From the NCBI GenBank assembly GCA_947175295.1, contig CAMWMK010000001.1, forward strand, positions 1 to 64,000: a stretch of DNA of 64,000 nucleotides. Reading direction: 5' to 3'. The notes below the pieces were generated by a model that saw only the letters and a program-made list of their open reading frames with translations, ran no database searches and had not been told where the DNA came from. A program made the position numbers and the translations under genes. Origin of the DNA: an uncultured Porphyromonadaceae bacterium. Its GTDB lineage: Bacteria > Bacteroidota > Bacteroidia > Bacteroidales > Muribaculaceae. Position 1 is the first letter of the stretch. Each line of letters opens with the position of its first letter. Positions 6,185 through 62,921 of the stretch are shown one piece after another.

Positions 6185-6195
6185 AACGATTTGAT

Positions 6196-7347
6196 ATGAA
6201 GAATGGAATATTTAAAGCTTCAGTAGTGGGGGCATTGCTGGGAATTACTGCTTCGGGCTGCTCTACGGCATCCAGGGAGAAGACTGATCCCCAGATGCCG
6301 CTGCTTCTCGGCGAGACGCTCCTTGCCGACGACAGCGTCCACGTGAATGCCCACGGCGGAATGATAATGGAGAAGGACGGTGTGTTCTACTGGTATGGCG
6401 AGCACCGCGGCGACGGCACACCCGGAAGCATGCAGCAGGGGGTGTCGCTCTATACATCCTCCGATCTGCGCAACTGGAAGAACCGCGGCATTGTGCTGCA
6501 GCTTCTCGACTCCGTAGGGCATCCCTTGGAACTCGGGTGCAAGATCGAGCGCCCCAAGGTGGTCTACAATCCGACAACGGGGAAATACGTCATGTGGTTT
6601 CACCACGAGCTTAAAGACCGCGGATATGCGGCGGCACAGGCCGGAGTGGCGGTAGCCGACACTCCGGAAGGTCCGTTTGAGTTTATCAGAAGCGCGCGCG
6701 TGAACCCAGGTGTGTACCCAGAAAACCTGAGCGAGGAAGACCGCAATGCGGCTTGGGATCCGGAAATGGAATGGTGGTCCGAACCATGGTATGGGCAGCT
6801 GCGACAGGGCAGCTTCGTGAAGCGCGACCTCGACGGCGGACAGATGGCCCGCGACATGACCATCTATGTAGACAAAGATGGAAGGGCATACCATATATAT
6901 TCATCGGAAGACAACCTCACACTCCAGATAGCGGAACTCGATCCGACTTATACCGACCACACCGGCCGATATATACGTGTGGCTCCCGGCGGCCACAACG
7001 AGGCGCCGACACTAATGGAGCACGACGGCACTTACTGGATGATCACTTCCGGCTGCACCGGCTGGGCGCCAAACGCCGCACGTCTGCTCCGCGCCGACTC
7101 CATAATGGGTGAATGGACACAGCTTGATGTGAATCCGGCAAGGGGAGAAGGAGCCGAGACCACTTTCGACACCCAGGGCACCTATATAATGAAGATAGGC
7201 GACAGCTTCACTTTCATGGCCGACAGATGGAACCCCGAAAACCTCGGCGATTCTCGCCATGTATGGATTCCAGTGAAGTTTGACGAATCAGGCAATCCCT
7301 ATCTCGAGATGCCAGTCGATACTGAGACAGTCACGGCCGAGCCCTGA
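6196..7347 (+). CDS. GH43-family lipoprotein, resembling the exo-beta-1,3-galactanase-like branch
   Basis: Lipobox (GITASGC); VNAHGGMIMEKDGVFYWYGEHRG and LELGCKIERPKVVYNPTTGKYVMWFHHE motifs. Confidence 0.7.
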   Translation: MKNGIFKASVVGALLGITASGCSTASREKTDPQMPLLLGETLLADDSVHVNAHGGMIMEKDGVFYWYGEHRGDGTPGSMQQGVSLYTSSDLRNWKNRGIVLQLLDSVGHPLELGCKIERPKVVYNPTTGKYVMWFHHELKDRGYAAAQAGVAVADTPEGPFEFIRSARVNPGVYPENLSEEDRNAAWDPEMEWWSEPWYGQLRQGSFVKRDLDGGQMARDMTIYVDKDGRAYHIYSSEDNLTLQIAELDPTYTDHTGRYIRVAPGGHNEAPTLMEHDGTYWMITSGCTGWAPNAARLLRADSIMGEWTQLDVNPARGEGAETTFDTQGTYIMKIGDSFTFMADRWNPENLGDSRHVWIPVKFDESGNPYLEMPVDTETVTAEP

Positions 7348-7350
7348 TTG

Positions 7351-7405
7351 GTTTAGGAGGTTTAGGAAGTTTAAGGGGTTTATGGGGGAGGATGTTTAGG
7401 AAGTT
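7351..7405. repeat. Degenerate tandem GTTTAGGAR repeat in the intergenic leader
   Basis: GTTTAGGAG GTTTAGGAA GTTTAAGGG GTTTATGG...GTTTAGGAA GTT read directly. Confidence 0.7.
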
Positions 7406-7442
7406 AAAATTTTGAACTAAAAATTATATAATCTAACCTTAC

Positions 7443-9755: not shown

Positions 9756-9772
9756 AAATCATTATTACATGA

Positions 9773-9805
9773 AAGCCTCCCCTGAAGAAAAATCAGGGGA
9801 GGCTT
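9773..9805. terminator. Perfect 13-bp stem hairpin between convergent genes (probable bidirectional terminator)
   Basis: AAGCCTCCCCTGA-AGAAAAA-TCAGGGGAGGCTT. Confidence 0.75.
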
Positions 9806-9820
9806 GTGTTGTATTGGTCC

Positions 9821-29854: not shown

Positions 29855-32050
29855 ATGAAATTCAATAGATATCATCTGGGTCTCGCCCTTCTTCCGATGC
29901 TTGCCGGCTGTGCTGACTATATCGACACAGACAACTACATCGTGGAGAAACCCGCTTCAATCGCGGAGTTCGAGTACCTTAACGACTACAAACCCCTCAA
30001 GGAATACGTCAACCGCAGCGCGCATCCCGGCTTCACGCTGGGAACAGCGCTCAGCGTAGACGACTATCTGAAGCAGGGTAGCGTCTATCTGCTGACCAAC
30101 TCCAACTTCGACATGATGACAGCCGGCAATGCCATGAAGTATGCTTTATGCGTTTCCGACAACGGCACCATGAATTTCGATAAGGTGCGCAGCTTCGTCG
30201 ACGCCGCAAGAAACGTCGGAATGCAGATCTACGGACACACACTGCTCTGGCACTCACAGCAGAACAATAAGTGGCTCAACAGCCTTCTCGCCGACAAGGA
30301 ATTTGACTTCGATCCTGACGCGAAGAACGAGGTGGTGGACTTCGAGCTCGACTTCTCATCGCTCAGCGAATACACCTACTGGCACCAGTCGCCTGACGCT
30401 ACCGTCTTCTCAATTGAAGGCGGCTGCCTGAAGATCGACAATCCGGCTGCTGTCAACTTCTGGGAGGTGCAGTATTTCACTTTCGACAACGTCAACCTTC
30501 AGAAAGATGTGGAGTATCAGCTCACAGTTGAGCTCAAGGCTACCGCCGAGGGCGCTGTGCAGGGCAATGTAGGCGGATGGAGCGACAATGCGGGTATCCG
30601 CATTCCCTATTCGACCGATTGGGAGACGAAGACCATTACCTTCACCTCAGCTACCGATGGTGGAACACATGGACTTTTCCAGACCGGCGACCTTGTGGGC
30701 ACTATATGGTATAAATCAATCAAGATCTCCCATCTCGAGGCTCCCGCAATGGAGATAGGGGTCTCACTGATGTCGGGAGGCGACGCCGACAAGGGTGAAA
30801 GCGCCAACATCATCGCCCGCGAACACGGCAATTCAGATATTTCGGCAAGAGTGGTAGACGATCCCGCGGGCACGGGCAAGGTGTATGAGTGTAACTACAA
30901 CGCCAATCCTTCCGAAGCGTGGGACTCTCAGCTCTTCATCTCTTCCAATGAGCCTCTTGAGGCCGGAACCAAAGTGCACGTGAAGTTCCGCTACCGCGCT
31001 ACTGACGCCCGCTCCATCGACACGCAGGCACATGGCGCTCCCGGAAGCTACCACCATTGGCAGTTTATCGGTACGCTCAACGCTACTACCGACTGGCAGG
31101 AACATGAATACACCGGCACCATCTCCGGCGATCAGGCCGGATCGGATGGTTGCTCCGCAATTGCATTCAACCTCAGTTCGCAGCCTGCCGGCGGTACGTT
31201 CTACATCGACGATGTGGTGTTTGAGAAGATTGTCTCCGCCAATACGATTCCGTTGACTCCTGAGGAGAAGGCAGAGGTGCTTGACGCCGAGCTTGGACGC
31301 TGGATAAAGGGTATGATGGACGCTACCGGAGGATATGTGAAGGCTTGGGACCTCATGAACGAAGGCCTCGCCGACACATGGGGCGACATAGACCTGAAGC
31401 ATCAGTCTACCGTACCTGACGCAAATGCATTCTACTGGCAGGACTACCTCGGCGACATGTATGTGCGCAACGCCGTGAAGTATGCGCGCCAGTACTACGC
31501 CGAGCAGGAAAACGCCAACCCCGACGACCTTAAGCTCTTCATCAACGACTATAACCTTGAAGCCACCTACAACAACAACGACAAGGCGAAGAGCCTCGTC
31601 AAGTGGATAGCCAAATGGGAGGAAGACGGAGTGACACGGATCGACGGCATCGGCTCGCAAATGCATATCAGCTACAGCTGCAATCCGACCGAGCAGAAGA
31701 AGCGCGAAGAGGGCGTGGTCAACATGCTCAAGATCCTTGCCGCTTCCGGCAAACTCATCCGCATCACAGAGCTCGACATGGGCATCGACGATGAGAACGG
31801 CAACGCCATCCAGACAGCCGACGTTACTCTCGAGCAGCACAAGGCAATGGGTGAATACTACCGATTCATAATCAATAAGTATTTCGAGCTCGTTCCCGTC
31901 GAGCAGCAGTTCGGTATCTGCCATTGGTGCCAGACCGACAGTCCTGAAGGCTCAGGCTGGAGGGCAAACACTCCCGTGGGTCTCTGGAACCTCAACCTTC
32001 AGCGCAAGCCTACCTACGGCGGATATGCCGACGGACTCGGCGACAACTGA
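29855..32050 (+). CDS. xyn10C: GH10 endo-1,4-beta-xylanase lipoprotein with two CBM-like modules inserted in the catalytic domain (Xyn10C-like)
   Basis: Lipobox (PMLAGC); GHTLLWHSQ, then ~300-aa insertion with two beta-sandwich modules, then WDLMNEG (acid/base Glu codon 31361-31363), ITELDM (nucleophile Glu codon 31769-31771). Confidence 0.92.
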   Translation: MKFNRYHLGLALLPMLAGCADYIDTDNYIVEKPASIAEFEYLNDYKPLKEYVNRSAHPGFTLGTALSVDDYLKQGSVYLLTNSNFDMMTAGNAMKYALCVSDNGTMNFDKVRSFVDAARNVGMQIYGHTLLWHSQQNNKWLNSLLADKEFDFDPDAKNEVVDFELDFSSLSEYTYWHQSPDATVFSIEGGCLKIDNPAAVNFWEVQYFTFDNVNLQKDVEYQLTVELKATAEGAVQGNVGGWSDNAGIRIPYSTDWETKTITFTSATDGGTHGLFQTGDLVGTIWYKSIKISHLEAPAMEIGVSLMSGGDADKGESANIIAREHGNSDISARVVDDPAGTGKVYECNYNANPSEAWDSQLFISSNEPLEAGTKVHVKFRYRATDARSIDTQAHGAPGSYHHWQFIGTLNATTDWQEHEYTGTISGDQAGSDGCSAIAFNLSSQPAGGTFYIDDVVFEKIVSANTIPLTPEEKAEVLDAELGRWIKGMMDATGGYVKAWDLMNEGLADTWGDIDLKHQSTVPDANAFYWQDYLGDMYVRNAVKYARQYYAEQENANPDDLKLFINDYNLEATYNNNDKAKSLVKWIAKWEEDGVTRIDGIGSQMHISYSCNPTEQKKREEGVVNMLKILAASGKLIRITELDMGIDDENGNAIQTADVTLEQHKAMGEYYRFIINKYFELVPVEQQFGICHWCQTDSPEGSGWRANTPVGLWNLNLQRKPTYGGYADGLGDN

Positions 32051-46079: not shown

Positions 46080-49000
46080 CTAATCCGCAACATCCGCTGC
46101 ATTTTCCTTTACCGGAGCCGCATCGTCTCCGGTCTCCTTTGCTATATATTCGCTTGGTGAGCAACCGTAATATTTCTTGAAGGATTCCGAGAACTGTCCA
46201 GGACTGGAGAATCCGACGGAATATCCCACCTGGGATATATTGGTGTTCCTCTTCAGGAGCATTTCGGCCGCGCTCTTAAGCCTGACGCTTTTTAGGAAGT
46301 CGCGGGGAGCCAGGCCTAAGAGAGCTTTCATCTTTCGGTGAAGATGCACCCTGCTGAGTCCTACGGATTCAGCCAGCTCTTCCACTCCGAATTCCGAATC
46401 GCCTATGTTTTCGTTGATGGCTTTTGTGATTCTTTCGAGAAGTAGTTCATCGTTGCCTTTAAGCTCGACTTTGTCGATGTTCCCTTCTATTTTCTCTCCA
46501 TGGCTGAAGCGTCCCTTCAGACGTATGCGCCCTGAGATCAGGCTTGCACAAAGCTGCCTTAGTTCCTCGATGCGGAATGGTTTCGTAAGATAGGCGTCGG
46601 CTCCTTTTTCCCATCCCGACATCCTCGTATCGAAGTCTTCGGAAGTGGTCAGAAGGATGATGGGGATATGGGCTGTATCGGCGTTGCTGCGTATCTTCCT
46701 GAGGAGTTCGAAGCCGTCTGATTTAGGCATCATGATGTCGGATACAATCAGGTCGATATTCTTCTCAAGCGCTATGGCATATGCCTCTTCGCCATCGCTT
46801 GCGGTGATCACCTTATATGAGTTGCCGAGTTCTTTCTTCAGATAGTTGCGTATCTCGTCGTCGTCATCCGCTATAAGTATGCGGTGGCTGTGGTTTCCTT
46901 TCCTGCAATTATCCTCCTCCGGCAAAGCCATGCTCTCATCCGCTTCAATGTATCTTTTAGGCGTTTCTATGTCTGGGGTATCCCTTATATCCTTATCTTT
47001 GAGATGCGCTCTTCCTAATGGAAGCGTCACGTCAAACCTGGCTCCGCTTCCGTCGTTTCTGTTGAAAGCGCGAATCGTGCCTTGGTGCATGTCGACGAGC
47101 ATTTTCGAAAGATTGAGGCCTATGCCGAATCCATTGCTTTTACGGTCTACTTGATAGAAGCGGTCGAAGATGTGCTTGAGGTTCTCCGGAGGTATTCCTG
47201 ATCCGGTATCGGCCACTTCCACGAGTGCCTGCTCCTTTCCGTCAGGTCCTGTCGTTTTGCGCAGGGTCACGTCTATTGACCCTCCGTCGGGAGTGAACTT
47301 GAGCGCGTTGCCGATGAGGTTTACAATCACCTTATCGAAGTTGTCCGGATCTATATATGCGTCTATCCGGCCGTCGGGGGCCGAGAAGGAAAGGTCTATT
47401 CTCCTTGTTTCGGCCTGCAGCCTGAATTCATCAATGATAAGTCCGATATATTCCTTCAGGTCGGTCTCTGAGAATAGAAGGTTCATCTGGCCTTTCTCAA
47501 TTCTCCTGACGTCGAGCATCTGATTGACCAGATTAGTGATGCGGTAGCCGTTGCGCTGTATCATCCTGAAGGTATTGGCTTTGTTTTCGTCCTTTTCTTC
47601 TCTTATCAGAGATGTCAGCGGGCTTGTTATCAAGGTGACTGGCGAGCGGAGCTCATGTGCGAAATTATACAGCATCTTGAATTTCTCCTCAGCCATTTCC
47701 TCTTTTCGGCGCTGCTGTCGGTAGCGGCGAATCACATACCATACAGTTGCGGTTATTAGGAGGATGACTATGGCATAGACGGTTTTCGCCCATATGGTCA
47801 GATACCAGGGTGGAAGTATCCTTATGAGTATTGAGGTGGCTGGAGAAGTCTGGCCGTTGTCAGTGGCCCTGATTTCAAGGATATAGCTGCCGGGCTCCAT
47901 ATAGTTGCAGACCACTTTGTTGTCGCCCGGAGGATTGATGTGCCATTCCTTATTGAGCGAGGGAATCCTGTATTCGAAGCAGATACTTCCGGAATTGAGG
48001 AAGTCGAATGTTGAGAATTCAAGTGAGAATGTGTTCTGGAAATAATTCAACAGGACTTCTGCGGATATGTCTTTGTCGGAATCGGCATAGGAGATTTCCG
48101 TATTTCCTTCGTTCCTGCTGCTGAGGTTGATGCGCGTGAGTATCGGCGGAGAAAGCGGTCTGGTGTCGTTGATAGCGTCCGGATAGAATGCGGTAAGGCC
48201 TTTGAATCCGGCTGCGAAAAGCTTATCGCCTGAAGTGCGCAGAAGCATTCCCTTTCTGTAGTCTCGTTCTCCGAGACCGTTGCCTGTAAGATAGCTGACG
48301 GTTTTGTTGTCGGCATATCTGATTCTCGACAGTCCGTTGTTGGTAGTACACCAGATGTCTCCGTTGTTGGCTTGCTCTATTCCGCATATGATGTTTCCCG
48401 GCATTCCCTGCACAGGGCCGTAGTGGTCCATGCGGTCTTCATCCGGAAAGAGATGATAGAGGCCGTTGTTGGTGCCTATCCATATGGTCTTGTCCTTTGC
48501 CGGCAGTATGTCGTAGACTATATGCGACCGAAGGGTCTTTACCGAATTGTTTTCGGTAAATCTATTGGTGTCGGGATTGAAGATGTCGATGCCGTTGAAG
48601 TGTCCGAGCCATACTTCTCCGGAGTATCCCGGAGCTATTACGCTGATCCAGTCGTTGCCAAGATGGGCCGGGGTGGCCATAGCGGTGGCTTCAGTCACGG
48701 AAATCCATTTGCCTTCGCTGTTACGGTATTTAAGGCCTTCTCCTGAAATGGAGGCATAAAGCCTTCCGGAATTGTCTTCGGCTATCGCGAGTATATCTTT
48801 GGAGCTTATCCTGTCAAGAAGTTCAGGTCCGTGTTCGGAATACCTCATTATTCTTCCGTCGTCATATCCCAGTAGGATATGTCCGTTGCTGGTCGTGCAT
48901 GATGAGGTCACGCGTCCTTTCGACTGAAAGGTGGCTTTGTGATTGAGGTCATGGTCAAACACCATTATGCTCCAGTTGCTTAGGGCCACTGCTATTCCTT

Positions 49001-50024
49001 TCCCGTCAGTTGAGGGGAATATAGTCTCTGTCTTGACGGATGGGGCCGTAGGGATTTCCCTGAAATTAAAAAGCTCCGGAGCCGTTGGTTGCATAGCGAG
49101 TCCCCCCTTTCGTGTGCCTGTCCATATATTGCCGTCTCGGTCTTCAAGCATGTCGAGTATTCCCTCCCCTTTTAGTCCGGCGTAGCTATCTTCAGGATAC
49201 ATGGTATCGTCCTCCATCCTGAAGACACCGTTTTCCAATGTATGGATCAGTATGTTTCCTTTGGAGTCTGTAAGGAATTTGATGTTGCTCCATCCCTGCG
49301 TGCCGTCAAGATGCCTGAACTCCTGTTTTGATGCGTCCCATAGATATATGTCAGACAGTGTCGACACATATAGGTTGTTGTTGCGGTCGTATGCGATGTC
49401 ATGTACAGCTTTTGGGAAAACCGTCGAGTAAAGTTTATTGAGGTTCTTGTCCAATGCCAGGAGTCGGCCGTCTCTTGCTCCTATCCATATTCGGTTGAGT
49501 GGATCCATCTTTATGAGATGGGAATATTTGGTCCCGATGAGTCGGTTGAGCGATTCAAGGGGTGTGGCTTTCATCGTTTTTGTGTCGACCGAATAGGTTC
49601 CGAAGCCAGCGCTGACGATAAGGAGTTCATTGTCGCTTCTCTGAATGATTGATCTTACTGATAGTGGATGTGTTTCCGGAAATGCCACGCTCTCGAATTT
49701 TCCGCTACCTTGCTCATATCGCTGCAGACCTTTCCCCGAACCTACCCATAGGTTTCCTTCCGCATCGTTAAATAGAGATTCCACGATATTGCTTTTAAGA
49801 GAAGTGGAATCTTCGGGATTGTTGGTGAAGGTGACGTTGGTCCATCCGTCGAATCGGTTGAGGCCGTTGTCTGTGCCGATCCATAGGAATCCTTTGGAGT
49901 CCTGTATGATATGAGTTATTTCGCGTGATGTCAGATTGCGCAGGTCATATCTGACGAGGGCTGATATCTGCATTGCAGACACCATTGTTAAGATAAGCGA
50001 GATGAGAATTCTGACATGGGTCAT
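46080..50024 (-). CDS. Hybrid two-component system regulator (HTCS-3)
   Basis: Propeller repeats (GFLWIGTDNGLNRFDG), AHELRSPVTL H-box, receiver (IADDDDEIRNYL...VSDIMMPKSDG...TKPF), AraC HTH (AAEMLLKRNTNISQVGYSVGFSSPGQFSESFKKYYGCSPSEYI). Confidence 0.93.
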   Translation of the reverse strand: MTHVRILISLILTMVSAMQISALVRYDLRNLTSREITHIIQDSKGFLWIGTDNGLNRFDGWTNVTFTNNPEDSTSLKSNIVESLFNDAEGNLWVGSGKGLQRYEQGSGKFESVAFPETHPLSVRSIIQRSDNELLIVSAGFGTYSVDTKTMKATPLESLNRLIGTKYSHLIKMDPLNRIWIGARDGRLLALDKNLNKLYSTVFPKAVHDIAYDRNNNLYVSTLSDIYLWDASKQEFRHLDGTQGWSNIKFLTDSKGNILIHTLENGVFRMEDDTMYPEDSYAGLKGEGILDMLEDRDGNIWTGTRKGGLAMQPTAPELFNFREIPTAPSVKTETIFPSTDGKGIAVALSNWSIMVFDHDLNHKATFQSKGRVTSSCTTSNGHILLGYDDGRIMRYSEHGPELLDRISSKDILAIAEDNSGRLYASISGEGLKYRNSEGKWISVTEATAMATPAHLGNDWISVIAPGYSGEVWLGHFNGIDIFNPDTNRFTENNSVKTLRSHIVYDILPAKDKTIWIGTNNGLYHLFPDEDRMDHYGPVQGMPGNIICGIEQANNGDIWCTTNNGLSRIRYADNKTVSYLTGNGLGERDYRKGMLLRTSGDKLFAAGFKGLTAFYPDAINDTRPLSPPILTRINLSSRNEGNTEISYADSDKDISAEVLLNYFQNTFSLEFSTFDFLNSGSICFEYRIPSLNKEWHINPPGDNKVVCNYMEPGSYILEIRATDNGQTSPATSILIRILPPWYLTIWAKTVYAIVILLITATVWYVIRRYRQQRRKEEMAEEKFKMLYNFAHELRSPVTLITSPLTSLIREEKDENKANTFRMIQRNGYRITNLVNQMLDVRRIEKGQMNLLFSETDLKEYIGLIIDEFRLQAETRRIDLSFSAPDGRIDAYIDPDNFDKVIVNLIGNALKFTPDGGSIDVTLRKTTGPDGKEQALVEVADTGSGIPPENLKHIFDRFYQVDRKSNGFGIGLNLSKMLVDMHQGTIRAFNRNDGSGARFDVTLPLGRAHLKDKDIRDTPDIETPKRYIEADESMALPEEDNCRKGNHSHRILIADDDDEIRNYLKKELGNSYKVITASDGEEAYAIALEKNIDLIVSDIMMPKSDGFELLRKIRSNADTAHIPIILLTTSEDFDTRMSGWEKGADAYLTKPFRIEELRQLCASLISGRIRLKGRFSHGEKIEGNIDKVELKGNDELLLERITKAINENIGDSEFGVEELAESVGLSRVHLHRKMKALLGLAPRDFLKSVRLKSAAEMLLKRNTNISQVGYSVGFSSPGQFSESFKKYYGCSPSEYIAKETGDDAAPVKENAADVAD

Positions 50025-50557: not shown

Positions 50558-53500
50558 ATGACAGCGATGAAAAATGATCACAGACTGCTTCATTGCATTG
50601 CTTTGTTGCTAATCTTCATCATGACTTCAGCCCTTGGCGCGAGAGCCGACACAGTCAAGGGTAATGTGACCGACGACACCGGAGAGCCGCTCATCGGCGT
50701 GACCGTTATGGTGGTCGGTCAAAAGGGCGGCACAGTGACCGACCTTGACGGCGACTACTCGATAGAAGTGGCCAATCTGGGAAAGGCTGAGCTACGCTTC
50801 ACCTATGTTGGTATGGAGACCCTGACCGTGAAGGTCAATTCCCGCCGGCAGGTGAACGTGGAGATGAAAAGCGCAGACTCCACACTTGATGAGGTTGTGG
50901 TGGTAGGCTACGGACAGCAGAAGAAAGCTTCCGTCGTAGGCGCTATCACGCAGACTTCCGGTAAGACCCTTGAGCGTGCCGGAGGTGTCTCCAGTGTGGG
51001 AGCCGCTCTCACCGGCAATCTTCCCGGTGTGATCACCATGGCCTCGTCAGGTATGCCCGGCGAAGAGGATCCGCAGATCATCATACGCTCGGCATCCACT
51101 TGGAACGGCAGTGATCCCCTTATTCTCGTCGATGGTATCGAGCGCGATATGGCCTCCGTGGATATCTCTTCAATAGAAAGCATATCTGTGCTTAAGGATG
51201 CCTCCGCTACTGCCGTATATGGCGTGAAGGGCGCCAATGGCGTGATCCTCATCACTACCAAACGCGGCAGTGAAGGCAAGGCGGTAGTCACGGCAAAGGT
51301 CAACATGACCGCGAAGGTTGCCTCGAAACTCCCCGCTAAATTCGATGCATACGATACGTTCTATCTGATGAACAATTCCATCGAGCGCGAAGCCGCGCTC
51401 AACGACAAAGGCTGGGGCGACTACACTCCGGCTGCCATTATCGATAAATACCGCAATCCTGCTGACGCCGAGGAATGGGACCGTTATCCCAATACCGACT
51501 GGGAAGACGCCCTCTTCAAGAAAAGCGCCTTATCCTACAATGCTTCCGTGTCGGCATCCGGAGGAACGAAGCTTGTCAGATATTTCGCTTCTGCCGATTT
51601 CACCCACGAGGGCGACCTTTTCAAGCAGTATGACAACCACCGCGGCTATAAGACCGGATTCGGATACAACCGTATAAATGTACGCTCCAATCTTGATTTC
51701 TCACTGACGAAGACTACCGAACTGACAGTAAACCTCTTTGGCTCTAACGCCACCCAAAAGACTCCATGGGACTACAACGGCGATGGAAACTCCTACTGGG
51801 GCTCCGCCTATAAGTCAGCTCCTGATGCTATGCGTCCGATCTACTCAAACGGCATGTGGGGATGGTATGCTCCCCGCGACGCCGACGTGCCCAACTCGGT
51901 AAGGATACTGGCGACAGGCGGTGATAAGACCTCCACCAACACCCGTATAAACAGCGACCTCGCATTGGTGCAGAAGCTTGACTTCGTGACAAAAGGACTG
52001 AGCTTCCGTGCAAAACTGGCTCTTGACTATAAATTCCTGGAGGAAAACAGAGGTATCAACGACCAGTATCACGAAGGTCAGCTTTATTGGGTCAATCCTA
52101 CCGACGGCAGCCAGCATCCAAAGAATCCTGATCCGCAGACAGGCCTTGATGTGACCGTAAATCCCATTCTCTGGGGTCATCAGGCGGGTGCAGTGAATGT
52201 CAATCAAACATTCAGAAGGGTCTATTACTCATTCCAGTTCGACTATAACCGTTCGTTCGGCCAGAATGAGGTCAGCGCACTCGCTCTTTTCAGCCGTGAG
52301 AAGACCACAGGCGGCAGCTCTTTCCCGGTATACCGCGAAGACTGGGTGTTCCGCCTGACTTACAACTGGGCCTACCGATATTTCGCTGAGTTCAACGGTG
52401 CTTATAATGGATCCGAGAAGTTCGGTCCGAAAAACCGCTTCGAGTTCTTCCCCTCCATGTCGATCGGATGGATGCTTTCCAACGAGCCTTTCATGGAATG
52501 GGCTCGCGCAAACAACTTGCTTACCACCTTGAAAATCCGCGGATCGATTGGTAAGGTCGGAGACGACCATGCCGGAGACCGCCATCTTTATCGGACCCAA
52601 TACAGCTATGGGGGCAACATCCAGATGGGAACCATCAATCCTCAGAACTCTCCATATACCTTCTACATCATCTCTCGTCTCGGCAATGAGAATATCTCAT
52701 GGGAAAAAGTTGAGAAGCAGAACATCGGTGTCGACTATTCGTTTATTGGAGGCATGTTCGCAGGTTCGGTCGATTTCTTCCGCGACAAGCGTACCGACAT
52801 CATCCTGACAGGAGGCGACCGCACATCCATTCCCTCATACTTCGGAGCGGAAGCCCCTACGGCTAACCTCGGCCGTATGGACAGCCACGGATACGAACTT
52901 GAACTCCGCTTCAACAAGCAGATAGGCAGGAACATGCGAGTATGGACCAATCTCAGTATGACGCATGCCACCAACGAAGTAAAATTCCGCGACGACCCAG
53001 CCCTAAAACCCGATTATCAGAAATACGCAGGCCATGAGTGGGGACAGGTGACGAGCTATATCGACCACGGCAACTTGACTTCATGGGATGATGTGCTCGG
53101 AAGTACTGTCTGGAACACCGGCAACGACTTCAAGCTCCCGGGCGACTACAACATCATCGACTTCAACGGCGACGGCGTGATCAACACCGAAGACAAGGCT
53201 CCCTACGGATATTCCACAACTCCACAGAACACCTACAACGCTTCGGTAGGATTCGAATGGCGCAACTGGAGCATCTTCGCTCAGTTCTATGGAGTCTCCA
53301 ACGTAATGCGCTACGTGAAATATCCTACTTTCCGCTCCACTGCCCACGTGGCTTACGACGAGGGTGAATACTGGACTCCCTTCAATGGTGCATATCTCCC
53401 TCAGCCACGCTGGGGAACCACCATCGATGAATGTGCCGACGGAACACGCTATCTCTACGACGGCTCCTATATCCGCTTGAAAAACGTTGAGATATCCTAT

Positions 53501-53677
53501 GAGTTCCAAGGAAGATGGATGGCTAAGGCCGGTCTTAAGTCACTGCGCCTATACGTCAACGGCAACAATCTCTTCATGTGGACAAAAATGCCCGACGACT
53601 GTGAGCGTGGCGGTTCCGGCGACGGTGTGTATCCTTCCTTCAAACGATTCAATGTCGGCATAGACCTGACCCTCTGA
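50558..53677 (+). CDS. SusC-like TonB-dependent receptor, xus operon 2 (XusA-like paralogue)
   Basis: CPD-like domain (GNVTDDTGEPLIGVTVMVVGQKGGTVTDLDGDYSI), LDEVVVVGYGQQKKASVVGAITQT, strongly similar to the 18952-22122 product. Confidence 0.9.
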   Translation: MTAMKNDHRLLHCIALLLIFIMTSALGARADTVKGNVTDDTGEPLIGVTVMVVGQKGGTVTDLDGDYSIEVANLGKAELRFTYVGMETLTVKVNSRRQVNVEMKSADSTLDEVVVVGYGQQKKASVVGAITQTSGKTLERAGGVSSVGAALTGNLPGVITMASSGMPGEEDPQIIIRSASTWNGSDPLILVDGIERDMASVDISSIESISVLKDASATAVYGVKGANGVILITTKRGSEGKAVVTAKVNMTAKVASKLPAKFDAYDTFYLMNNSIEREAALNDKGWGDYTPAAIIDKYRNPADAEEWDRYPNTDWEDALFKKSALSYNASVSASGGTKLVRYFASADFTHEGDLFKQYDNHRGYKTGFGYNRINVRSNLDFSLTKTTELTVNLFGSNATQKTPWDYNGDGNSYWGSAYKSAPDAMRPIYSNGMWGWYAPRDADVPNSVRILATGGDKTSTNTRINSDLALVQKLDFVTKGLSFRAKLALDYKFLEENRGINDQYHEGQLYWVNPTDGSQHPKNPDPQTGLDVTVNPILWGHQAGAVNVNQTFRRVYYSFQFDYNRSFGQNEVSALALFSREKTTGGSSFPVYREDWVFRLTYNWAYRYFAEFNGAYNGSEKFGPKNRFEFFPSMSIGWMLSNEPFMEWARANNLLTTLKIRGSIGKVGDDHAGDRHLYRTQYSYGGNIQMGTINPQNSPYTFYIISRLGNENISWEKVEKQNIGVDYSFIGGMFAGSVDFFRDKRTDIILTGGDRTSIPSYFGAEAPTANLGRMDSHGYELELRFNKQIGRNMRVWTNLSMTHATNEVKFRDDPALKPDYQKYAGHEWGQVTSYIDHGNLTSWDDVLGSTVWNTGNDFKLPGDYNIIDFNGDGVINTEDKAPYGYSTTPQNTYNASVGFEWRNWSIFAQFYGVSNVMRYVKYPTFRSTAHVAYDEGEYWTPFNGAYLPQPRWGTTIDECADGTRYLYDGSYIRLKNVEISYEFQGRWMAKAGLKSLRLYVNGNNLFMWTKMPDDCERGGSGDGVYPSFKRFNVGIDLTL

Positions 53678-53710: not shown

Positions 53711-55582
53711 ATGAAATTGCAGATTATGAATATCTCTAAATACATAATAACGCTGGCTCTTGTCGCCGCATCAATAGGCGCGACTTCCTGCTCCGACTAT
53801 CTCGACAAGGCTCCCAACAGCGACATAGATGAGTCGGTTCCATACCAGAACTTCCGTAATTTCCAGGGATTCGTGGAGGAGCTTTACGATCGCATCCCGG
53901 TTATCTCCAACAACGAATACCACACTACCTTCAATTATGGCGAGGAAGACTATTGGGAGCCGCAGGAGACACGCCTGTTCGCCCGCAGCGTTGACTACGG
54001 CGACTTCTGGGGATTCACCACTTGCTACTATTCATATCCCAACACATATGATGATCCTAAAAACAACCCACGCCGCTACAAGGCAAACCTCTGGGAAAAC
54101 GCCTGGTATGCCATAAGGAAGTCCAACATAGGACTCTCCAAGCTTGATGGTCTTGTAGACGCAACTGCTGAAGAACGCGACCTTATCGAGGGTCAGCTTT
54201 ATTTCTTCCGTGGACTGTTTCATTATCTCGTAATGGAATGGTGGGGAGGTGTACCCTATATCGACCGCGCTATCGGACCGGACGAGACCATCACGCTGCC
54301 ACGGGAGACGTGGCAGGCCTGCGCTGAGAAATGCGCGGCTGATTTCCAGAGGGCATCGGAGCTGCTTCCGGTTGACTGGGACAGTACTGCCGCAGGAAAG
54401 GCCACACTCGGCAACAACAACATGCGCGCCAACAAGATCATGGCGCTCGCCTACAAGGGAAAGGTGCTTCTATGGGCAGGAAGCCCCCTTATGAACTGGG
54501 ATTCCCACGAGCGAAACAACGCCTATGCCGTCTACGATGAGGATTTCTGCAGGCAGGCCGCAGAGGCCCTCGGACAGGCTCTGAAGCTGACAGAGCAGAC
54601 CGGACGCTACTCGCTACTTCCCATAGACCGCTTCAACGACCTTACACTCGTGTATAACTCAAAGGCTCTTCCCGGCGGCACTGAGACCATACTTCAGGAG
54701 AACATCCGCGACTATAGCGGTCGCTGGTCTTGGAACATGAACACCGACTTCCGTCCGCAGACGCATATAAGCGCAGGTGTCAAGTGCTGGCCTACAGCCA
54801 ACTATTCCAACTATTTCGGTATGGCAAACGGCTATCCGATCGAGGATGCAGCCGTAAAGGACAGTGAGGCCGGATATGATCCCGAATACCCTTGGCGCAA
54901 CAGAGATCCGCGTTTCTACAAGACATATGTATTCGACGGCGAATTCTGTGGCGAAGGTGGTCAGGGACTTGAGGCTACTCTCTTCACCGGCGGAGCGGAC
55001 CGCGAAGGGGCTAATCCGCAGAAGGGTTGTTATACAGGTCTGTTCAATGCCAAGCTCTCCCTTAAGAACTGCCATAACGGCAATGTCCGCGACCAATGGG
55101 CTTGCGTGCTTTCGCTGATGCGTCTTGCCGATGTATATCTCCTTTATTCCGAGGCTACGGCAGTGGGATATGGAGTGAAGCAGGCTTCTTCGGCTTATGG
55201 CCGCACCGCAGAGGATGCGATCAATGTAGTCAGAGACAGGGCGCAGGTGGGGCATGTCTTGCCGAAGTTCACTGATTCCAAGGACAGTTTCCTCAGTGAG
55301 ATCCGCCGCGAACGAGCCGTTGAGCTCGCATTCGAGGGAATGCGCTTCCACGATCTCCGACGATGGATGCTCATCACGCAGCGTCCTTATACGCTGAAGA
55401 CTGCCTTTCAGTTCGACAGAGGTCCTGGATTCTCTCAGAATTCTACCGAAAACAAGGTGCTCAACCTTCGTGAAGAGGTTTTGCGTGAGCGCAATTTCAC
55501 AAGCCGCCATTATTGGCTTCCCCTTCCAAATAAGAACGACACATACCTCTACGAGGGTTTCGAACAGAACCCCGGTTGGTAA
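53711..55582 (+). CDS. SusD-like lipoprotein (XusB-like paralogue)
   Basis: Lipobox (GATSC) SDYLDKAPNSDIDESVPYQNF; EIRRERAVELAFEGMRFHDLRRW; GFEQNPGW. Confidence 0.9.
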   Translation: MKLQIMNISKYIITLALVAASIGATSCSDYLDKAPNSDIDESVPYQNFRNFQGFVEELYDRIPVISNNEYHTTFNYGEEDYWEPQETRLFARSVDYGDFWGFTTCYYSYPNTYDDPKNNPRRYKANLWENAWYAIRKSNIGLSKLDGLVDATAEERDLIEGQLYFFRGLFHYLVMEWWGGVPYIDRAIGPDETITLPRETWQACAEKCAADFQRASELLPVDWDSTAAGKATLGNNNMRANKIMALAYKGKVLLWAGSPLMNWDSHERNNAYAVYDEDFCRQAAEALGQALKLTEQTGRYSLLPIDRFNDLTLVYNSKALPGGTETILQENIRDYSGRWSWNMNTDFRPQTHISAGVKCWPTANYSNYFGMANGYPIEDAAVKDSEAGYDPEYPWRNRDPRFYKTYVFDGEFCGEGGQGLEATLFTGGADREGANPQKGCYTGLFNAKLSLKNCHNGNVRDQWACVLSLMRLADVYLLYSEATAVGYGVKQASSAYGRTAEDAINVVRDRAQVGHVLPKFTDSKDSFLSEIRRERAVELAFEGMRFHDLRRWMLITQRPYTLKTAFQFDRGPGFSQNSTENKVLNLREEVLRERNFTSRHYWLPLPNKNDTYLYEGFEQNPGW

Positions 55583-55615: not shown

Positions 55616-58429
55616 ATGAATACTAAATTTCATATAGGCCTGACGGCTCTCGCTCTTTCGCTCTTCATCTTTCCGGCCTGGGCGGCAGACGAGACGCAGG
55701 ACAGCTTGGTAAACATAGCTTTCGGCAAGATTGACAGGAGAGACGTGATCACTGCCTCATCATTTGTCAACATCAGCGATATAAGCAAAAAGAACGCCAA
55801 CAACAGTCCGCTTTCTGACGTAGCTACCCATGTAGGAGGCTACAACGGCAATATTTGGGGGCAGGCACCTCTGGTGCTCATCGACGGTGTGCCGCGTGAT
55901 GCGTCGCTCGTAAAGGCTTCGGAGGTGGAAAGCGTCTCTATCCTTAAGGATGCGGCCGCCGTAGCCCTCTACGGTAGTCGGGGGGCTAAAGGAGTCGTAC
56001 TCATCACTACGAAAAGGGGCTACGTGGCTCCCATGAAAATCGATGTGCGGGCAAACGTTGGAGCTATGCTTCCGAAGTCATATCCGAAATATCTTGACGC
56101 GGCCACATACATGAGTCTCTACAATGAAGCTTGTGCCAACGACGGCAAGTCGCCGCTTTATGACCAGGCTACAATCTACAACACTGCGATTGGTACGAAT
56201 CCCTACAGATATCCGGACGTGGATTTCTATTCTTCCGACTATCTGCGCGATTTCGTGACGACGGCCGACATCACAGGCGAAGTATACGGCGGAACGGAGA
56301 AGACAAAGTATTATCTGAACTTAGGTGTGGATTACGCCAACGACCTCATTAAGTACGGCGAGCACCATAAGTCAAATACATTTAACTTCAATGTGCGCGG
56401 CAATGTCGACATGACTATTGCGAAATGGCTCACCGCTACCACCAATGCCGCCATCATTGTAAGCGATAGTTATAGTGGCCGTGGAGATTTCTGGGGAGGT
56501 GCGGCTAACCTGCGTCCCAACTGGTTCTCACCCTGGCTTCCTGTGAGCATGATGGATCCGAACAATGCATCTATTCAGGACTACATCAATACGAGCACCC
56601 ATCTTGTAGGTGGACAGTATCTCCTTGGCGGTACTACTTCCGATCAGACAAATGCTTTCTCCGAGGCGTTGGCTGCAGGATACACGCGTCAGAAATACCG
56701 TAAGTTCCTTTTCGACCTTACCTTGAACGCCGATCTCTCCGGCCTTACCGAGGGTCTCTCTTTCAAGGCCGCCTATAGTGTGGACTACAACGCCCACTAT
56801 TCCGAGGCTTATGCACAGCCTTATGCTGTCTATAAGCCTACATGGGCCAATACCAATGGAAAGGATATCATCATCGGTCTTGACAAGATTAACGAGGACA
56901 AGTCGTCAACTAATGAGTACGTAGGACAGTCTACCTATCATCAGACAATGATGTTCAGCGCTCAGTTCGACTATGCCCGTTCATTCGCCGAAGCCCACAA
57001 CGTCAACGCAACTCTGGTAGGATGGGGTTATCAGCAGCACTTCTCCGCCGATGGCGGACATTCGAGCGAAGGCGGCTACCATCGTCCGAGCAATGTCAAT
57101 GCAGGCTTGAGATTGGACTATAACTACCGTCATCGCTATTATGCCGACCTCACGGGCGCATTTGTCCACTCCTCCAAGCTTCCCGAGGGTAGGCGTAACG
57201 CGTTCTCTCCGGCAGTCTCGATAGCATGGCGCCTATCCAACGAGGATTTCATGAGTGGATCGCGTACATGGCTCGACGACCTCAAGATTATGGGCTCCTA
57301 TGCCAACCTCCATCAGGATATAGACATCAGCGACTGGTATCTATACATGGCTGACTACCAGTTCTCCCCATCGAGCGGTTGGTTTCAGTGGGCCGACGGT
57401 ACCGTAGGTGGGTCTACCTCCACTTCAAAGAGAGGTTCCAACGACAGGCTTTCATTCATAACCCGCAAGGAATTTCGCTTTGGCCTCGACGCATCGCTCT
57501 TCGACGGTCTTCTTTACTTGAATGCCAACTGGTTTAATCAGACCACCAACGGCCTCCTTACCCAGGGTTCCAGCACGCTCTATCCATCATTCTACAATTC
57601 AGGCACAGGCAACTTCCTTCCCTATATCAACTACAACAGGGATGAGCGTACCGGTGTGGACTATACGTTCAATATCAAAAAGGAGTTCGGCGACTGGAAA
57701 TTCTCTCTCGGTCTCACTGGAATGTACTTTGATTCAAAGGCTAAGCTACGCGACGAGGTGTGGGAGGAAGACTATCTTTACCGGCAGGGTCACGCTCTTG
57801 ACGCTTCCTGGGGATATATATGCGAGGGGTTCTTCCAGTCTGAGGAGGAGATCGCTTCTTCTCCAAAGCAATCTTTCGGCGGTACCGTACGCCCCGGCGA
57901 CCTTAAGTACAGGGATATAAACGGTGATGATGTGATAGACTCTAAAGACCAGGTGGATCTTGGAAAGATGGGATGGAGTTCCTCTCCTTATGTCTACGGA
58001 CTCAACCTGACGGCACAATACAGGAAATTCACCCTTTACCTTTCCGGTACCGGCGTGAGCGGCAGTAAATTCTACAAAAACGACAGCTACTACTGGCTAC
58101 GAGGTACAAGCAAATACTCCGAGATGGCTCTCGGACGCTGGACTCCGGAGACTGCGGCCACTGCTTCCTTCCCGCGCCTGACCACTGAAAACGGCGACAA
58201 TAACTACCAGAACTCTACTTTCTGGATTGCCAAGGGGGATTGCTTCCGCCTCGACAACCTCCAGCTAACGTATGACATCACTCCGGGTAAGGGTTTTATC
58301 CACGGCATAAGCTTATATGCCGGTGCCTACAATCTCTTTACTATCTCTAAGGAGCGTGAGCATCTGGAACGAAGCCTCTATGGTCCGCAGTTCCGCACCA
58401 TCTACATAGGTTGCAAACTTAACATGTAA
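55616..58429 (+). CDS. Short SusC-like receptor without CPD domain (XusC-like paralogue)
   Basis: Signal peptide, then DSLVNIAFGKIDRRDVI, plug (PLVLIDGVPRDASLVKASEVESVSILKDAAAVALYGSRGAKGVVLITTKRG). Confidence 0.88.
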   Translation: MNTKFHIGLTALALSLFIFPAWAADETQDSLVNIAFGKIDRRDVITASSFVNISDISKKNANNSPLSDVATHVGGYNGNIWGQAPLVLIDGVPRDASLVKASEVESVSILKDAAAVALYGSRGAKGVVLITTKRGYVAPMKIDVRANVGAMLPKSYPKYLDAATYMSLYNEACANDGKSPLYDQATIYNTAIGTNPYRYPDVDFYSSDYLRDFVTTADITGEVYGGTEKTKYYLNLGVDYANDLIKYGEHHKSNTFNFNVRGNVDMTIAKWLTATTNAAIIVSDSYSGRGDFWGGAANLRPNWFSPWLPVSMMDPNNASIQDYINTSTHLVGGQYLLGGTTSDQTNAFSEALAAGYTRQKYRKFLFDLTLNADLSGLTEGLSFKAAYSVDYNAHYSEAYAQPYAVYKPTWANTNGKDIIIGLDKINEDKSSTNEYVGQSTYHQTMMFSAQFDYARSFAEAHNVNATLVGWGYQQHFSADGGHSSEGGYHRPSNVNAGLRLDYNYRHRYYADLTGAFVHSSKLPEGRRNAFSPAVSIAWRLSNEDFMSGSRTWLDDLKIMGSYANLHQDIDISDWYLYMADYQFSPSSGWFQWADGTVGGSTSTSKRGSNDRLSFITRKEFRFGLDASLFDGLLYLNANWFNQTTNGLLTQGSSTLYPSFYNSGTGNFLPYINYNRDERTGVDYTFNIKKEFGDWKFSLGLTGMYFDSKAKLRDEVWEEDYLYRQGHALDASWGYICEGFFQSEEEIASSPKQSFGGTVRPGDLKYRDINGDDVIDSKDQVDLGKMGWSSSPYVYGLNLTAQYRKFTLYLSGTGVSGSKFYKNDSYYWLRGTSKYSEMALGRWTPETAATASFPRLTTENGDNNYQNSTFWIAKGDCFRLDNLQLTYDITPGKGFIHGISLYAGAYNLFTISKEREHLERSLYGPQFRTIYIGCKLNM

Positions 58430-58444
58430 TTATCCGAAAGCAGT

Positions 58445-60202
58445 ATGAAAAAACTATTATATGCAATGGTGGCTGTAGCTTCCCTCGGACTCACAAGCTG
58501 CGACGACCTCTTTGAGCCTGCCAAGCAGAACTTCAAGGATCTAAGCCAGATGGAGACGGAGCCTGACTTCGCTATGGGATTCCTGACAAGAGCCTATAGT
58601 TCCCTCTCCGGCTACTATACCAATACGGAGTATGCCACAGACAATGCCGTAGTGAACCAGAACAGTGAAGGTTTCCGCACTATGGCTACCGGCGGGTGGA
58701 CATCGTCTTCCTGGACCGGCATCAACGAATGGTCGGGATCTTATGCAGGCATACAGTATATCAACCAGTTTCTCTCCAAAATAGACGATGTGGAGTGGAG
58801 CGCCGATCCCGAGAGGCGTGAGATGCTTTCTGTGCGTCTACGCGGAGAGGCCTACGGTTTGCGTGGAATCCTCCACTATCAGCTTCTGCGCGCCCATGCC
58901 GGTTATGACGATGCCGGTCAATTGCTTGGTGTGCCGTATCTTGAAAGCTATCTCGGTGCCAACGACGACATGAATGCCGCTATGGCGCGTCCTTCTTTCA
59001 AGGAATGTGTAGAGAAAATAAAGGCCGACCTGAATCGTGCGATAGAGATACTTCCTCTCGACTATGAGGATATGGACGAAGTGCCGGCCAAATACACTCA
59101 ATATACTGATGATGTGGCTATTTACAACCGAACGATGGGATCGCACTTCCGCCAGCTTGTCAGTGGACGTATCGCTCAGGCATACATCTCACGCCTCAAT
59201 CTTCTCGCTGCAAGCGACGGATTCGGGAATTCCATTTCCTGGACGGAGGCGGCCGAGGCTTCGGCTGTCCTGCTCATGGAGAACAAGGGTATTGATGGCG
59301 TGAAGGCCGGTGCCTACGAGTACTATGTTGCCGGTATCGCCGACAATCTTCAGGAAGGCGTCAATCCCTCTGAGATCATCTGGCGTGAGAATGTGGCTGA
59401 CAACAACAATACGGAATCAGACAATCTTCCTCCAAGCCTCAACGGAAACGGCCGGATGAATCCCTCTCAGAATCTTGTCGACGCTTTTCCGACTGCAAGC
59501 GGATATCCCATTGGAATTGCCGACGACTACGATGCTGCCGATCCCTATGCCAACCGTGATCCCCGGTTGAGTGCCTACATAATCTACAACGGAAGCACTC
59601 GGGTCGGTGTCGACAATGTCACGGTCTCTACTGTTGCCGGTTCCACTGATGGTATCGGCGGCGTAGAACAGCGTTCTTCACGTACTGGCTACTACATGAA
59701 GAAGCGACTGCGTATGGACGTGAACTGCACGGCAGGTTCCACCACCACTAAGCCTCACTATACCCCCCGCGTGCGATACACCGAGATTTATCTCAACTAT
59801 GCTGAGGCGGCCAACGAGGCCTACGGACCAAAGGCCGACGGCGGCAATGGTTTCTCTGCCTACGATGTGATAAAAGCCATCCGTCAGCGTGCAGGTATCG
59901 GCGCTGCAAACGGTGACGCATACCTTGAGGAGTGTGCCGCTTCCAAGGAAAAGATGAGGGATCTTATCCGCAACGAGCGTCGCATCGAGCTTTGCTTTGA
60001 GAACTCTCGTTTCTGGGATCTCCGTCGTTGGAAACTCGACCTCAACGAAACCGTCAAAGGTATCGACTGGCAGGCTGACGGCACATATAAGATCATTGAT
60101 GTCGAGACGCGTGACTTTGAAGACTATATGGCCTATCCTCCCATTCCTCAGTCAGAGATACTTAAATACAGCAATCTCCAGCAGAACATGGGCTGGCATT
60201 AA
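58445..60202 (+). CDS. SusD-like lipoprotein (XusD-like paralogue)
   Basis: Lipobox (LTSC) DDLFEPAKQNFKDLSQME; DLIRNERRIELCFENSRFWDLRRW; LQQNMGWH. Confidence 0.9.
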   Translation: MKKLLYAMVAVASLGLTSCDDLFEPAKQNFKDLSQMETEPDFAMGFLTRAYSSLSGYYTNTEYATDNAVVNQNSEGFRTMATGGWTSSSWTGINEWSGSYAGIQYINQFLSKIDDVEWSADPERREMLSVRLRGEAYGLRGILHYQLLRAHAGYDDAGQLLGVPYLESYLGANDDMNAAMARPSFKECVEKIKADLNRAIEILPLDYEDMDEVPAKYTQYTDDVAIYNRTMGSHFRQLVSGRIAQAYISRLNLLAASDGFGNSISWTEAAEASAVLLMENKGIDGVKAGAYEYYVAGIADNLQEGVNPSEIIWRENVADNNNTESDNLPPSLNGNGRMNPSQNLVDAFPTASGYPIGIADDYDAADPYANRDPRLSAYIIYNGSTRVGVDNVTVSTVAGSTDGIGGVEQRSSRTGYYMKKRLRMDVNCTAGSTTTKPHYTPRVRYTEIYLNYAEAANEAYGPKADGGNGFSAYDVIKAIRQRAGIGAANGDAYLEECAASKEKMRDLIRNERRIELCFENSRFWDLRRWKLDLNETVKGIDWQADGTYKIIDVETRDFEDYMAYPPIPQSEILKYSNLQQNMGWH

Positions 60203-60226: not shown

Positions 60227-61261
60227 ATGAAACGTAAATTTATATTTCCCGCATCCCTTGCCGCACTGGCTTTGCTTTCAGGTTGCCATAACGGAGACAA
60301 CGAATTCTCCGATTTCGACTATCAGACAGTGTATTTTGCCAATCAGTACGGCATGCGCACCATAGAACTCGGTACTGACGAAAACGTTGACCTTACTTCC
60401 GACAACAATCATGAGGTAAGCATTGTCGCAGCCTGGGGTGGAGGCTACAGCAACAAGAAGAACGTGCTCATCGACTACGTGGTGGATCCTTCGATTGTTG
60501 ATGGATTCTACTTCAAGGATTCCGACCAGCTCGTTGAGGTGATGCCTTCCGACTACTATACTATCGACGCGAATCAGATCCGTATACCTTCAGGACAGAT
60601 CAATGGCGGAGTGAAGGTGCGTCTGACAGACAAGTTCTTCGCCGACAGAAAGGCAGTGGGCAACTGCTATGTGATTCCGGTGCGCATGACGGATGTATCC
60701 GGAGCCGACAGGATTCTTACCGGCACTGCAACAGAGGAAAATCCGGTGCTTACAAATGATGCTCATTGGTCGGTACAACCCAAGAATTTCATGCTTTTCG
60801 GAGTCAAGTTTGTCAATCCATGGCATGGCCAGTATCTCCGCAGAGGCGTAGATGACGCCTCTGTTGAAGGACAGGCATCCAGGATTGTCCGCCACAGCCG
60901 GTATGTTGAGAACGACGAGGTCGTGGACCTATCTACTTCCGCCTACAAGGAAGATGTGTTGCCTGTGACTGTAAAGGATGCTCAGGGTGCCGGACATACA
61001 GTGGATGTGGTGCTATCGTTTGCTGATGACAATTCCTGTACGCTTTCTTCCGGTACGGAGGGCGTAATGGTCTCCGGCTCCGGTAAGTTTGTGGCCAAAG
61101 GGGAGAAGCAGAGCCTCGGAGGCAAAGACCGCGATGCCATCTATCTGGACTATATCATGGATCTGCCAGGCCTAAATATGAAGCTTGGGTCGAAAGACAC
61201 TCTCGTGCTCCGTACCCGGAATGTCTACGGCGCCCAGGCGTTCAGCATTGAAAGAAAATAA
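60227..61261 (+). CDS. XusE-like lipoprotein (paralogue of 28776-29846)
   Basis: Lipobox (LLSGC); QTVYFANQYGMRTIELGTDENVD, CYVIPVRMTDVSGADRILTG, FGVKFVNPWHGQYLRRGVD. Confidence 0.78.
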   Translation: MKRKFIFPASLAALALLSGCHNGDNEFSDFDYQTVYFANQYGMRTIELGTDENVDLTSDNNHEVSIVAAWGGGYSNKKNVLIDYVVDPSIVDGFYFKDSDQLVEVMPSDYYTIDANQIRIPSGQINGGVKVRLTDKFFADRKAVGNCYVIPVRMTDVSGADRILTGTATEENPVLTNDAHWSVQPKNFMLFGVKFVNPWHGQYLRRGVDDASVEGQASRIVRHSRYVENDEVVDLSTSAYKEDVLPVTVKDAQGAGHTVDVVLSFADDNSCTLSSGTEGVMVSGSGKFVAKGEKQSLGGKDRDAIYLDYIMDLPGLNMKLGSKDTLVLRTRNVYGAQAFSIERK

Positions 61262-61280: not shown

Positions 61281-62921
61281 ATGAAAAAGTTGTTTATCTA
61301 CGCTCTGCCCGCACTTTCCTTGGCAATGGCTTCCTGTGCCGACGGCTATGAGGGTGATTTCAAGATGGACAAGCCGGAGAGTGTGGCTCTCGACGAGCGG
61401 ATTGCTTCCTATGCTGTGCTTCCGGAATATGCATCAAAAGCCGGTGTCTCACTTGGTGTGGCGGTAGATCCTTCTGACTTTGCGGCTCAAGGACTGGCCT
61501 ACAGTATCGTAAAGACAAATTTCAGCGAGGTGGAAAGCGCTGTAAGCATCACTCCGTCCGCTTTGATGACAGAAGAGGGTGCCTATGACTTCACTCCTCT
61601 TTCGGCTCTTGTCGAGACTGCCGGCAAAGCTGGAGTCAGAGTTTTCGGACCCGCTCTCTGTTCTGATGTCAACATATCGGCCTCTTATCTTAATTCTCTG
61701 CTTGCCGATGTAGTGATTCCTTATCAGCCATGGAACGAGGAGATATTGGTATATGATTTTGAGGATGACGCGGTAGGCACTCCCTATGCCTCGCAGAAGA
61801 AAGCCGCCGGAAGCGTAAATGTCGCTGTGATGGACGATCCTCTCAGCCAGCAGGGAAAGGTGCTTGGTGGCACCAAGTTGACTATGGATGTGCCACTCGT
61901 AGAAGTAACGCTTCCCGAGGGGTCGACCCTTGCCGATGTCTCGAGAGTGACTTTGAAATGCCTATTGCTTGAAGGCACTCCTACGTCCGCAAGGATTCAG
62001 GTAGAGGCTTCCGGTCTCAACGATAAGGCCAATCCTTATCTGAGCAAAGGCAGATGGGAGGAGTATATCTTTGATCTCTCAAACATTAAATTCAAGGAGG
62101 CCGAACTTAAGGTCAATAAATTCAAGCTTGCCGTTGGTGCTTATGGGTCAGGTATTAGCTGCTGCATCGACGACATCACGATACGTCTTGAGCATCCCAT
62201 CGGTGATGACACTGTAATCGTTAAGACTCCTGAGGAAAAGACCGGAATCATCCATGGTGAGCTCTATAGGTGGATCGATGGTATTACCGACATCTGTGCC
62301 GGTTCCGTAAAGGATTACGTCATCAAGGATCAGCCTCTCGAATCAGGAAATGCCGGGTTCCTGTGGAGTGATTATCTTGGTACTGAATATCTTGCAGATG
62401 TGCAGAAGGCAGTTGTTGCCAAAGTTGGAAGTGATGCTGTATTCTATGTCGGCCAGAACATTGCCGTCAGCGATGCAGTTGCGGCGGATGTGGACGCACT
62501 CAAGGCTGAGATTCAGACTCTCGAACGTCAGGGTGTGAAAGTAGATGGTGTCAGTATCGTACTCAATGCCTCATACTACCTTGACGCGTCGTCTCAGACA
62601 GCGGCGGAAGCCGGCACTGTGGCTTTAATCAGCAGCCTTGCATCGCTTGGCAAGCCGGTAAGGCTATCATCTCTTAAGATCAATGTGATTAATGAGAACG
62701 GCATGCAGGCCAACCCTGTCAATCTATCGGTAGAGCAGCGCAAGGGGATAGGGGAGTACTATGGCTTGATGATAAGCACATTCCTTTCCGCGCTTGGCGA
62801 CGACGCTAAAGGCATATCTTTCTCATCCGTGCTTAACACCCCAACGGACACGGCCCCTTGGCAGCAGAACGGCAACCGCTCCTTCGTCTACGAAGGTATA
62901 GTGAAAGGCCTATCCAAATGA
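61281..62921 (+). CDS. Catalytically degenerate GH10-like lipoprotein with CBM-like insert (putative surface glycan-binding pseudoenzyme)
   Basis: Lipobox (LAMASC); collinear with the 29855-32050 xylanase (LNSLLAD, YLG, VDG, EQRKGIGEYYG...), but WDLMNEGL is replaced by YVIKDQPL and ITELDM by LSSLKI. Confidence 0.8.
   Translation: MKKLFIYALPALSLAMASCADGYEGDFKMDKPESVALDERIASYAVLPEYASKAGVSLGVAVDPSDFAAQGLAYSIVKTNFSEVESAVSITPSALMTEEGAYDFTPLSALVETAGKAGVRVFGPALCSDVNISASYLNSLLADVVIPYQPWNEEILVYDFEDDAVGTPYASQKKAAGSVNVAVMDDPLSQQGKVLGGTKLTMDVPLVEVTLPEGSTLADVSRVTLKCLLLEGTPTSARIQVEASGLNDKANPYLSKGRWEEYIFDLSNIKFKEAELKVNKFKLAVGAYGSGISCCIDDITIRLEHPIGDDTVIVKTPEEKTGIIHGELYRWIDGITDICAGSVKDYVIKDQPLESGNAGFLWSDYLGTEYLADVQKAVVAKVGSDAVFYVGQNIAVSDAVAADVDALKAEIQTLERQGVKVDGVSIVLNASYYLDASSQTAAEAGTVALISSLASLGKPVRLSSLKINVINENGMQANPVNLSVEQRKGIGEYYGLMISTFLSALGDDAKGISFSSVLNTPTDTAPWQQNGNRSFVYEGIVKGLSK

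Follow-up and report, generated by a model that had tools for sequence, protein, structure and literature searches.

The gene at 61281-62921 of the window (the whole 64,000-nucleotide stretch of Muribaculaceae DNA analysed here) encodes a degenerate, probably non-catalytic GH10 protein. Our computational analysis shows that it descends from GH10, has lost its catalytic residues, is kept intact by selection and lies in a genomic setting like that of PUL-XylL in Bacteroides ovatus. We think it likely that the product is an outer-membrane, probably surface-exposed lipoprotein that no longer hydrolyses glycans and has an accessory role in a PUL-XylL-type locus, binding glycan at the cell surface. 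The sequence-only reading held that such an exapted xylanase would be a notable system, but the kind was described in 2015: BACOVA_03431 of B. ovatus PUL-XylL is an inactive GH10 protein that sits on the cell surface and binds xylan, and by that paper's account it was then the only natural inactive GH10 described (Rogowski et al., 2015; PMC4491172). The window gene is thus a second, Muribaculaceae instance of a published kind, and the parts that add to the known case are the recurrent degeneration of GH10 proteins in this slot and an apparent two-body cassette. The features discussed below are listed in Table 1.

Table 1. Features of the locus in the window, with strand and basis of assignment
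Feature	Position	Strand	Basis or remark
Hybrid two-component regulator (HTCS), likely PUL regulator	46080..50024	-	Sensor, kinase, receiver and AraC-type output regions read from sequence
susC-like 1	50558..53677	+	Pfam
susD-like 1	53711..55582	+	Pfam
susC-like 2	55616..58429	+	Plug domain and position between two susD genes
susD-like 2	58445..60202	+	Pfam
BT_3987-like_N + DUF5627 lipoprotein, 59% identical to BACOVA_03430 (PDB 3N91)	60227..61261	+	
Degenerate GH10 lipoprotein, 546 aa	61281..62921	+	Open ORF; PF00331 1.3e-5; predicted GH10 barrel
Lipoprotein leader and N-terminus, codons 1-35, lipobox Cys19; common to both body types	61281..61385	+	
GPALCSDVN in place of GH10 motif GHTLLWHSQ	61647..61673	+	Sequence alignment
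Beta-sandwich (CBM-like) insert within barrel, residues 152-304	61734..62192	+	AlphaFold2 model secondary structure
Asp350-Gln351 at Asn-Glu acid/base position	62328..62333	+	Asp350 62328-62330, Gln351 62331-62333 (CAG)
Ser464 at nucleophile Glu position	62670..62672	+	Codon TCT
Start of secreted protein of unknown family (482 aa), ends at contig 64460; part of exchanged segment	63012..64000	+	

The sole family match in a Pfam search of the protein is to PF00331 (GH10), which scores 25.1 bits (cut-off 22.1 bits) and covers residues 49-126 only. BLASTP against the xylanase encoded at 29855-32050 of the window, with which the sequence-only reading had aligned the product, returned two collinear segments of 27-29% identity on either side of an insert (E = 5e-23 and 2e-17); the kinship with GH10 is therefore not due to chance. 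The frame and the lipobox (MASC19) are intact, as had been read from the letters. An AlphaFold2 model (mean pLDDT 71.8), built on an alignment of eight sequences, predicts a GH10 barrel that a beta-sandwich breaks at about residues 152-304. When this model was submitted to Foldseek, nearly all of the best 50 matches listed carried the description of a GH10 xylanase or design, with E from 3e-11 to 1e-7 and target-normalised TM-scores of about 0.6-0.7 for single-barrel structures. The CBM-like insert of the earlier reading is a predicted beta-sandwich, but residues 153-304 matched no CBM profile or any other entry in Pfam. Nor was homology between the insert and the product of the next gene significant (E = 0.04). 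In active GH10 enzymes with CBM inserts, such as the window xylanase and the B. ovatus surface enzyme BACOVA_04390, one or more beta-sandwich modules break the barrel at the same place.

The window xylanase occupies the same PUL position in an operon of its own, which lies within a large xylan-degrading region (2084-45936) that also holds further HTCS-like regulators and several GH-like genes; this first operon reads susCD-susCD-DUF5627-GH10, and its xylanase is intact. A xylanase of the same genus (L022:1501-2775, 424 aa) has intact catalytic motifs, does not carry the insert of the window xylanase and is 75% identical to it in its C-terminal part.

Alignment with active GH10 enzymes shows that both catalytic glutamates are gone: the acid/base is Gln351, preceded by Asp350, and the nucleophile is Ser464. 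The residues named in the sequence-only reading, including GPALCSDVN for GHTLLWHSQ, are all correct, and the loss is wider than it had stated, extending to most of the remaining -1 subsite. Relative to the window xylanase, WDLMNEGL has become YVIKDQPL (MNEGL to KDQPL), GSQMHISY SIVLNASY, RITELDMG RLSSLKIN, AGNAMKYA SAVSITPS and CHWCQTDS SFSSVLNT. In the -1 subsite, Lys, His, Trp, Asn, Gln and His have all given way to other residues. The active GH10 enzymes with CBM inserts keep the Asn-Glu pair, the nucleophile Glu, GHTLxWHxQ and QMH (checked for 29855-32050), whereas the 61281-62921 product has none of them.

The loss extends beyond this one protein. The nucleophile Glu is missing in every member of the Muribaculaceae group, including the two body types described below; its position holds Asn or Asp in the more distant relatives L004-L007, while the close ones have either Ser there or a gap next to Val/Ser. 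The acid/base Glu is kept in L004-L007 (YDEP) and is Gln in the genus of the window. Because all members lack the nucleophile while L004-L007 retain the acid/base, the pattern suggests that the nucleophile was lost first in this group. The persistence of YDEP, a part of the machinery that outlasted the nucleophile, could also be taken to mean that these proteins are still enzymes with relocated or unusual catalytic residues. We find this very improbable, given that the nucleophile is replaced across the group, that the -1 subsite residues named above are replaced in the window protein and that BACOVA_03431, itself lacking the nucleophile, is inactive against xylans (PMC4491172).

Loss of catalytic residues alone would equally fit a decaying pseudogene. 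Yet relatives with 66-78% identity to the product (L033-L035 and L040-L045) are intact, as are more distant ones (L004, 48%; L005, 42%; L006 and L007, 37-39%), and among the full-length relatives found all frames are open and none has an internal stop. Among pairs for which dS could be estimated (Nei-Gojobori), dN/dS lies between 0.05 and 0.12; the least saturated pair (dS 0.68) gives 0.09, comparable with 0.07 for the neighbouring gene. The same locus also recurs in independently assembled MAGs. The selection test refutes pseudogene decay, as the sequence-only reading had expected in calling the gene selected, and decay or an assembly artefact can in effect be dismissed.

The composition of the locus resembles that of B. 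ovatus PUL-XylL, a locus for complex glucuronoarabinoxylan (PMC4491172). The contig was read on over 62900-82800, and past the end of the window its positions 64570-78358 carry a GH98 gene (64570-67743), two GH43-CBM6 genes and genes of families GH31, GH95 and GH127; among solved structures, the GH95 protein matches 4UFC (BACOVA_03438) best. No solved structure came close to the SusD proteins, a search for DUF5627 in the control genomes gave no match, and a promoter and terminator scan returned hits at chance level only.

Like the window protein, BACOVA_03431 is a GH10-like lipoprotein without a catalytic nucleophile, encoded directly after BACOVA_03430 (the 3N91 protein) and two susCD pairs, in a locus with GH98, GH43, GH31 and GH95 genes. 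The window protein differs in its Muribaculaceae host and in having also lost the acid/base Glu, of which the paper makes no mention for BACOVA_03431, naming just the nucleophile and the -2 subsite. Judged by position, architecture and shared lesion, it is plausible that the two are counterparts. Searches with 3N91 in several Bacteroidales families and viral contigs, and with the window protein in plasmids, did not find B. ovatus or BACOVA_03431.

BACOVA_03431 binds glucuronoxylan and corn xylan, while BACOVA_03430 did not bind xylan (PMC4491172). Since a protein in the same PUL slot binds xylan, xylan binding by the window protein is plausible by analogy, and by the same analogy this protein, with its lipobox Cys19, is probably displayed at the surface. 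There it would hold xylan chains beside the SusCD transporters and the GH98 xylanase, in a PUL-XylL-type locus for complex glucuronoarabinoxylan, with binding through the beta-sandwich insert, a remodelled barrel cleft or both. Cooperation with SusCD may be inferred from BACOVA_03431 and from the stable complexes, or utilisomes, that outer-membrane PUL components form (PMC7618045).

Such complexes also speak for the main rival explanation, in which the dead barrel binds no glycan and is a structural or adaptor subunit that docks on SusC or positions other outer-membrane PUL components. The old active-site segments show no excess conservation over the barrel: of their 50 motif columns 10 are invariant, compared with 69 of 350 columns for the barrel as a whole (P = 0.54). 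They therefore give no sign that the former cleft is the binding site, which also suits an adaptor. There is a precedent as well: GH18-like BT1284 and its Bacteroides faecium orthologue are catalytically impaired glycoside hydrolases kept in Bacteroidales PULs, and BT1284 had no measurable binding to its expected glycan, although it belongs to another family and to an N-glycan PUL (PMC11180146). Against an adaptor stand the xylan binding of BACOVA_03431 in the same slot (PMC4491172) and the beta-sandwich insert, which every type A relative retains and of which the 728-aa relatives L006 and L007 carry two. We regard the adaptor role as unlikely, though it is the main rival.

In the genus of the window, the slot holds a degenerate GH10 body of either type A or type B. 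Identity within each type is 74-87% (67-69% for the outlier L045), but between the two types it is only 26-32%. The type B model is also a GH10 fold, at lower confidence. L045 aside, neither the leaders (61-97% identity) nor the upstream gene (72-83% DNA identity) track body type. DNA collinearity between the window and L036, a type B locus, stops at 61386, codon 35, and returns in the GH98 gene at 64570; in between, only a 150-base tail of the next gene (64315-64464) matches. The segments compared are contig 61281-64460 and L036:8001-10956, and the picture is the same for L037, whose type B protein lies at L037:8001-9653, and for L038. On its simplest reading from present sequences, this pattern looks like the exchange of a cassette of about 3 kb. 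We tentatively propose, as a possibility we would not yet favour, that the slot in this one Muribaculaceae genus is a swappable ligand-recognition cassette, in which A and B bodies replace each other by recombination together with the next gene, behind a conserved leader, and so would tune which xylan is captured by the same SusCD.

Across the Bacteroidales, the 3N91 homologue is as a rule followed by an active GH10, but degenerate forms recur in this slot. In a different family, three same-slot GH10 proteins (L113:7308-9434, L120:2997-5126 and L121:1890-4079) have lost both Glu positions, possibly a separate origin. The same-slot GH10 at L110:6401-9064, likewise from outside the Muribaculaceae, has lost the acid/base (VSDP) and kept the nucleophile motif (SELD), and it has an intact sister (L112:6576-8795); judged from these sequences, its degeneration is independent. 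L123 has lost the nucleophile. In one further locus (L106, G429), a 3N91-type lipoprotein (8851-9900) has no GH10-like gene after it, and the next gene (6102-8084) reads as a GH43-type beta-xylosidase/arabinofuranosidase.

A GH10 tree built without the motif columns and without the insert places the window gene among degenerate forms, in a clade with strong support (100/99 with L004-L007, 99/96 with type B), and requires three changes of state. This deep, separately branching lineage rules out a recent duplication of the window xylanase. A single origin of all degenerate forms was rejected (AU test, p = 0.004), but it was not rejected when L110 was left out (p = 0.115). We therefore hold the claim to at least two origins of GH10 degeneration in the slot, and not to the three of the tree.

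These findings turn one characterised case of an inactive GH10 into a deep and recurrently evolved group in the Bacteroidales. Natural intermediates are available, with the nucleophile lost and the acid/base kept, and then with both lost. Annotation pipelines may label such genes as xylanases, so that catalytic capacity can be overcounted. Finally, with two exchangeable bodies it would be possible to test directly whether surface glycan-binding proteins derived from dead enzymes set the ligand range of a PUL.
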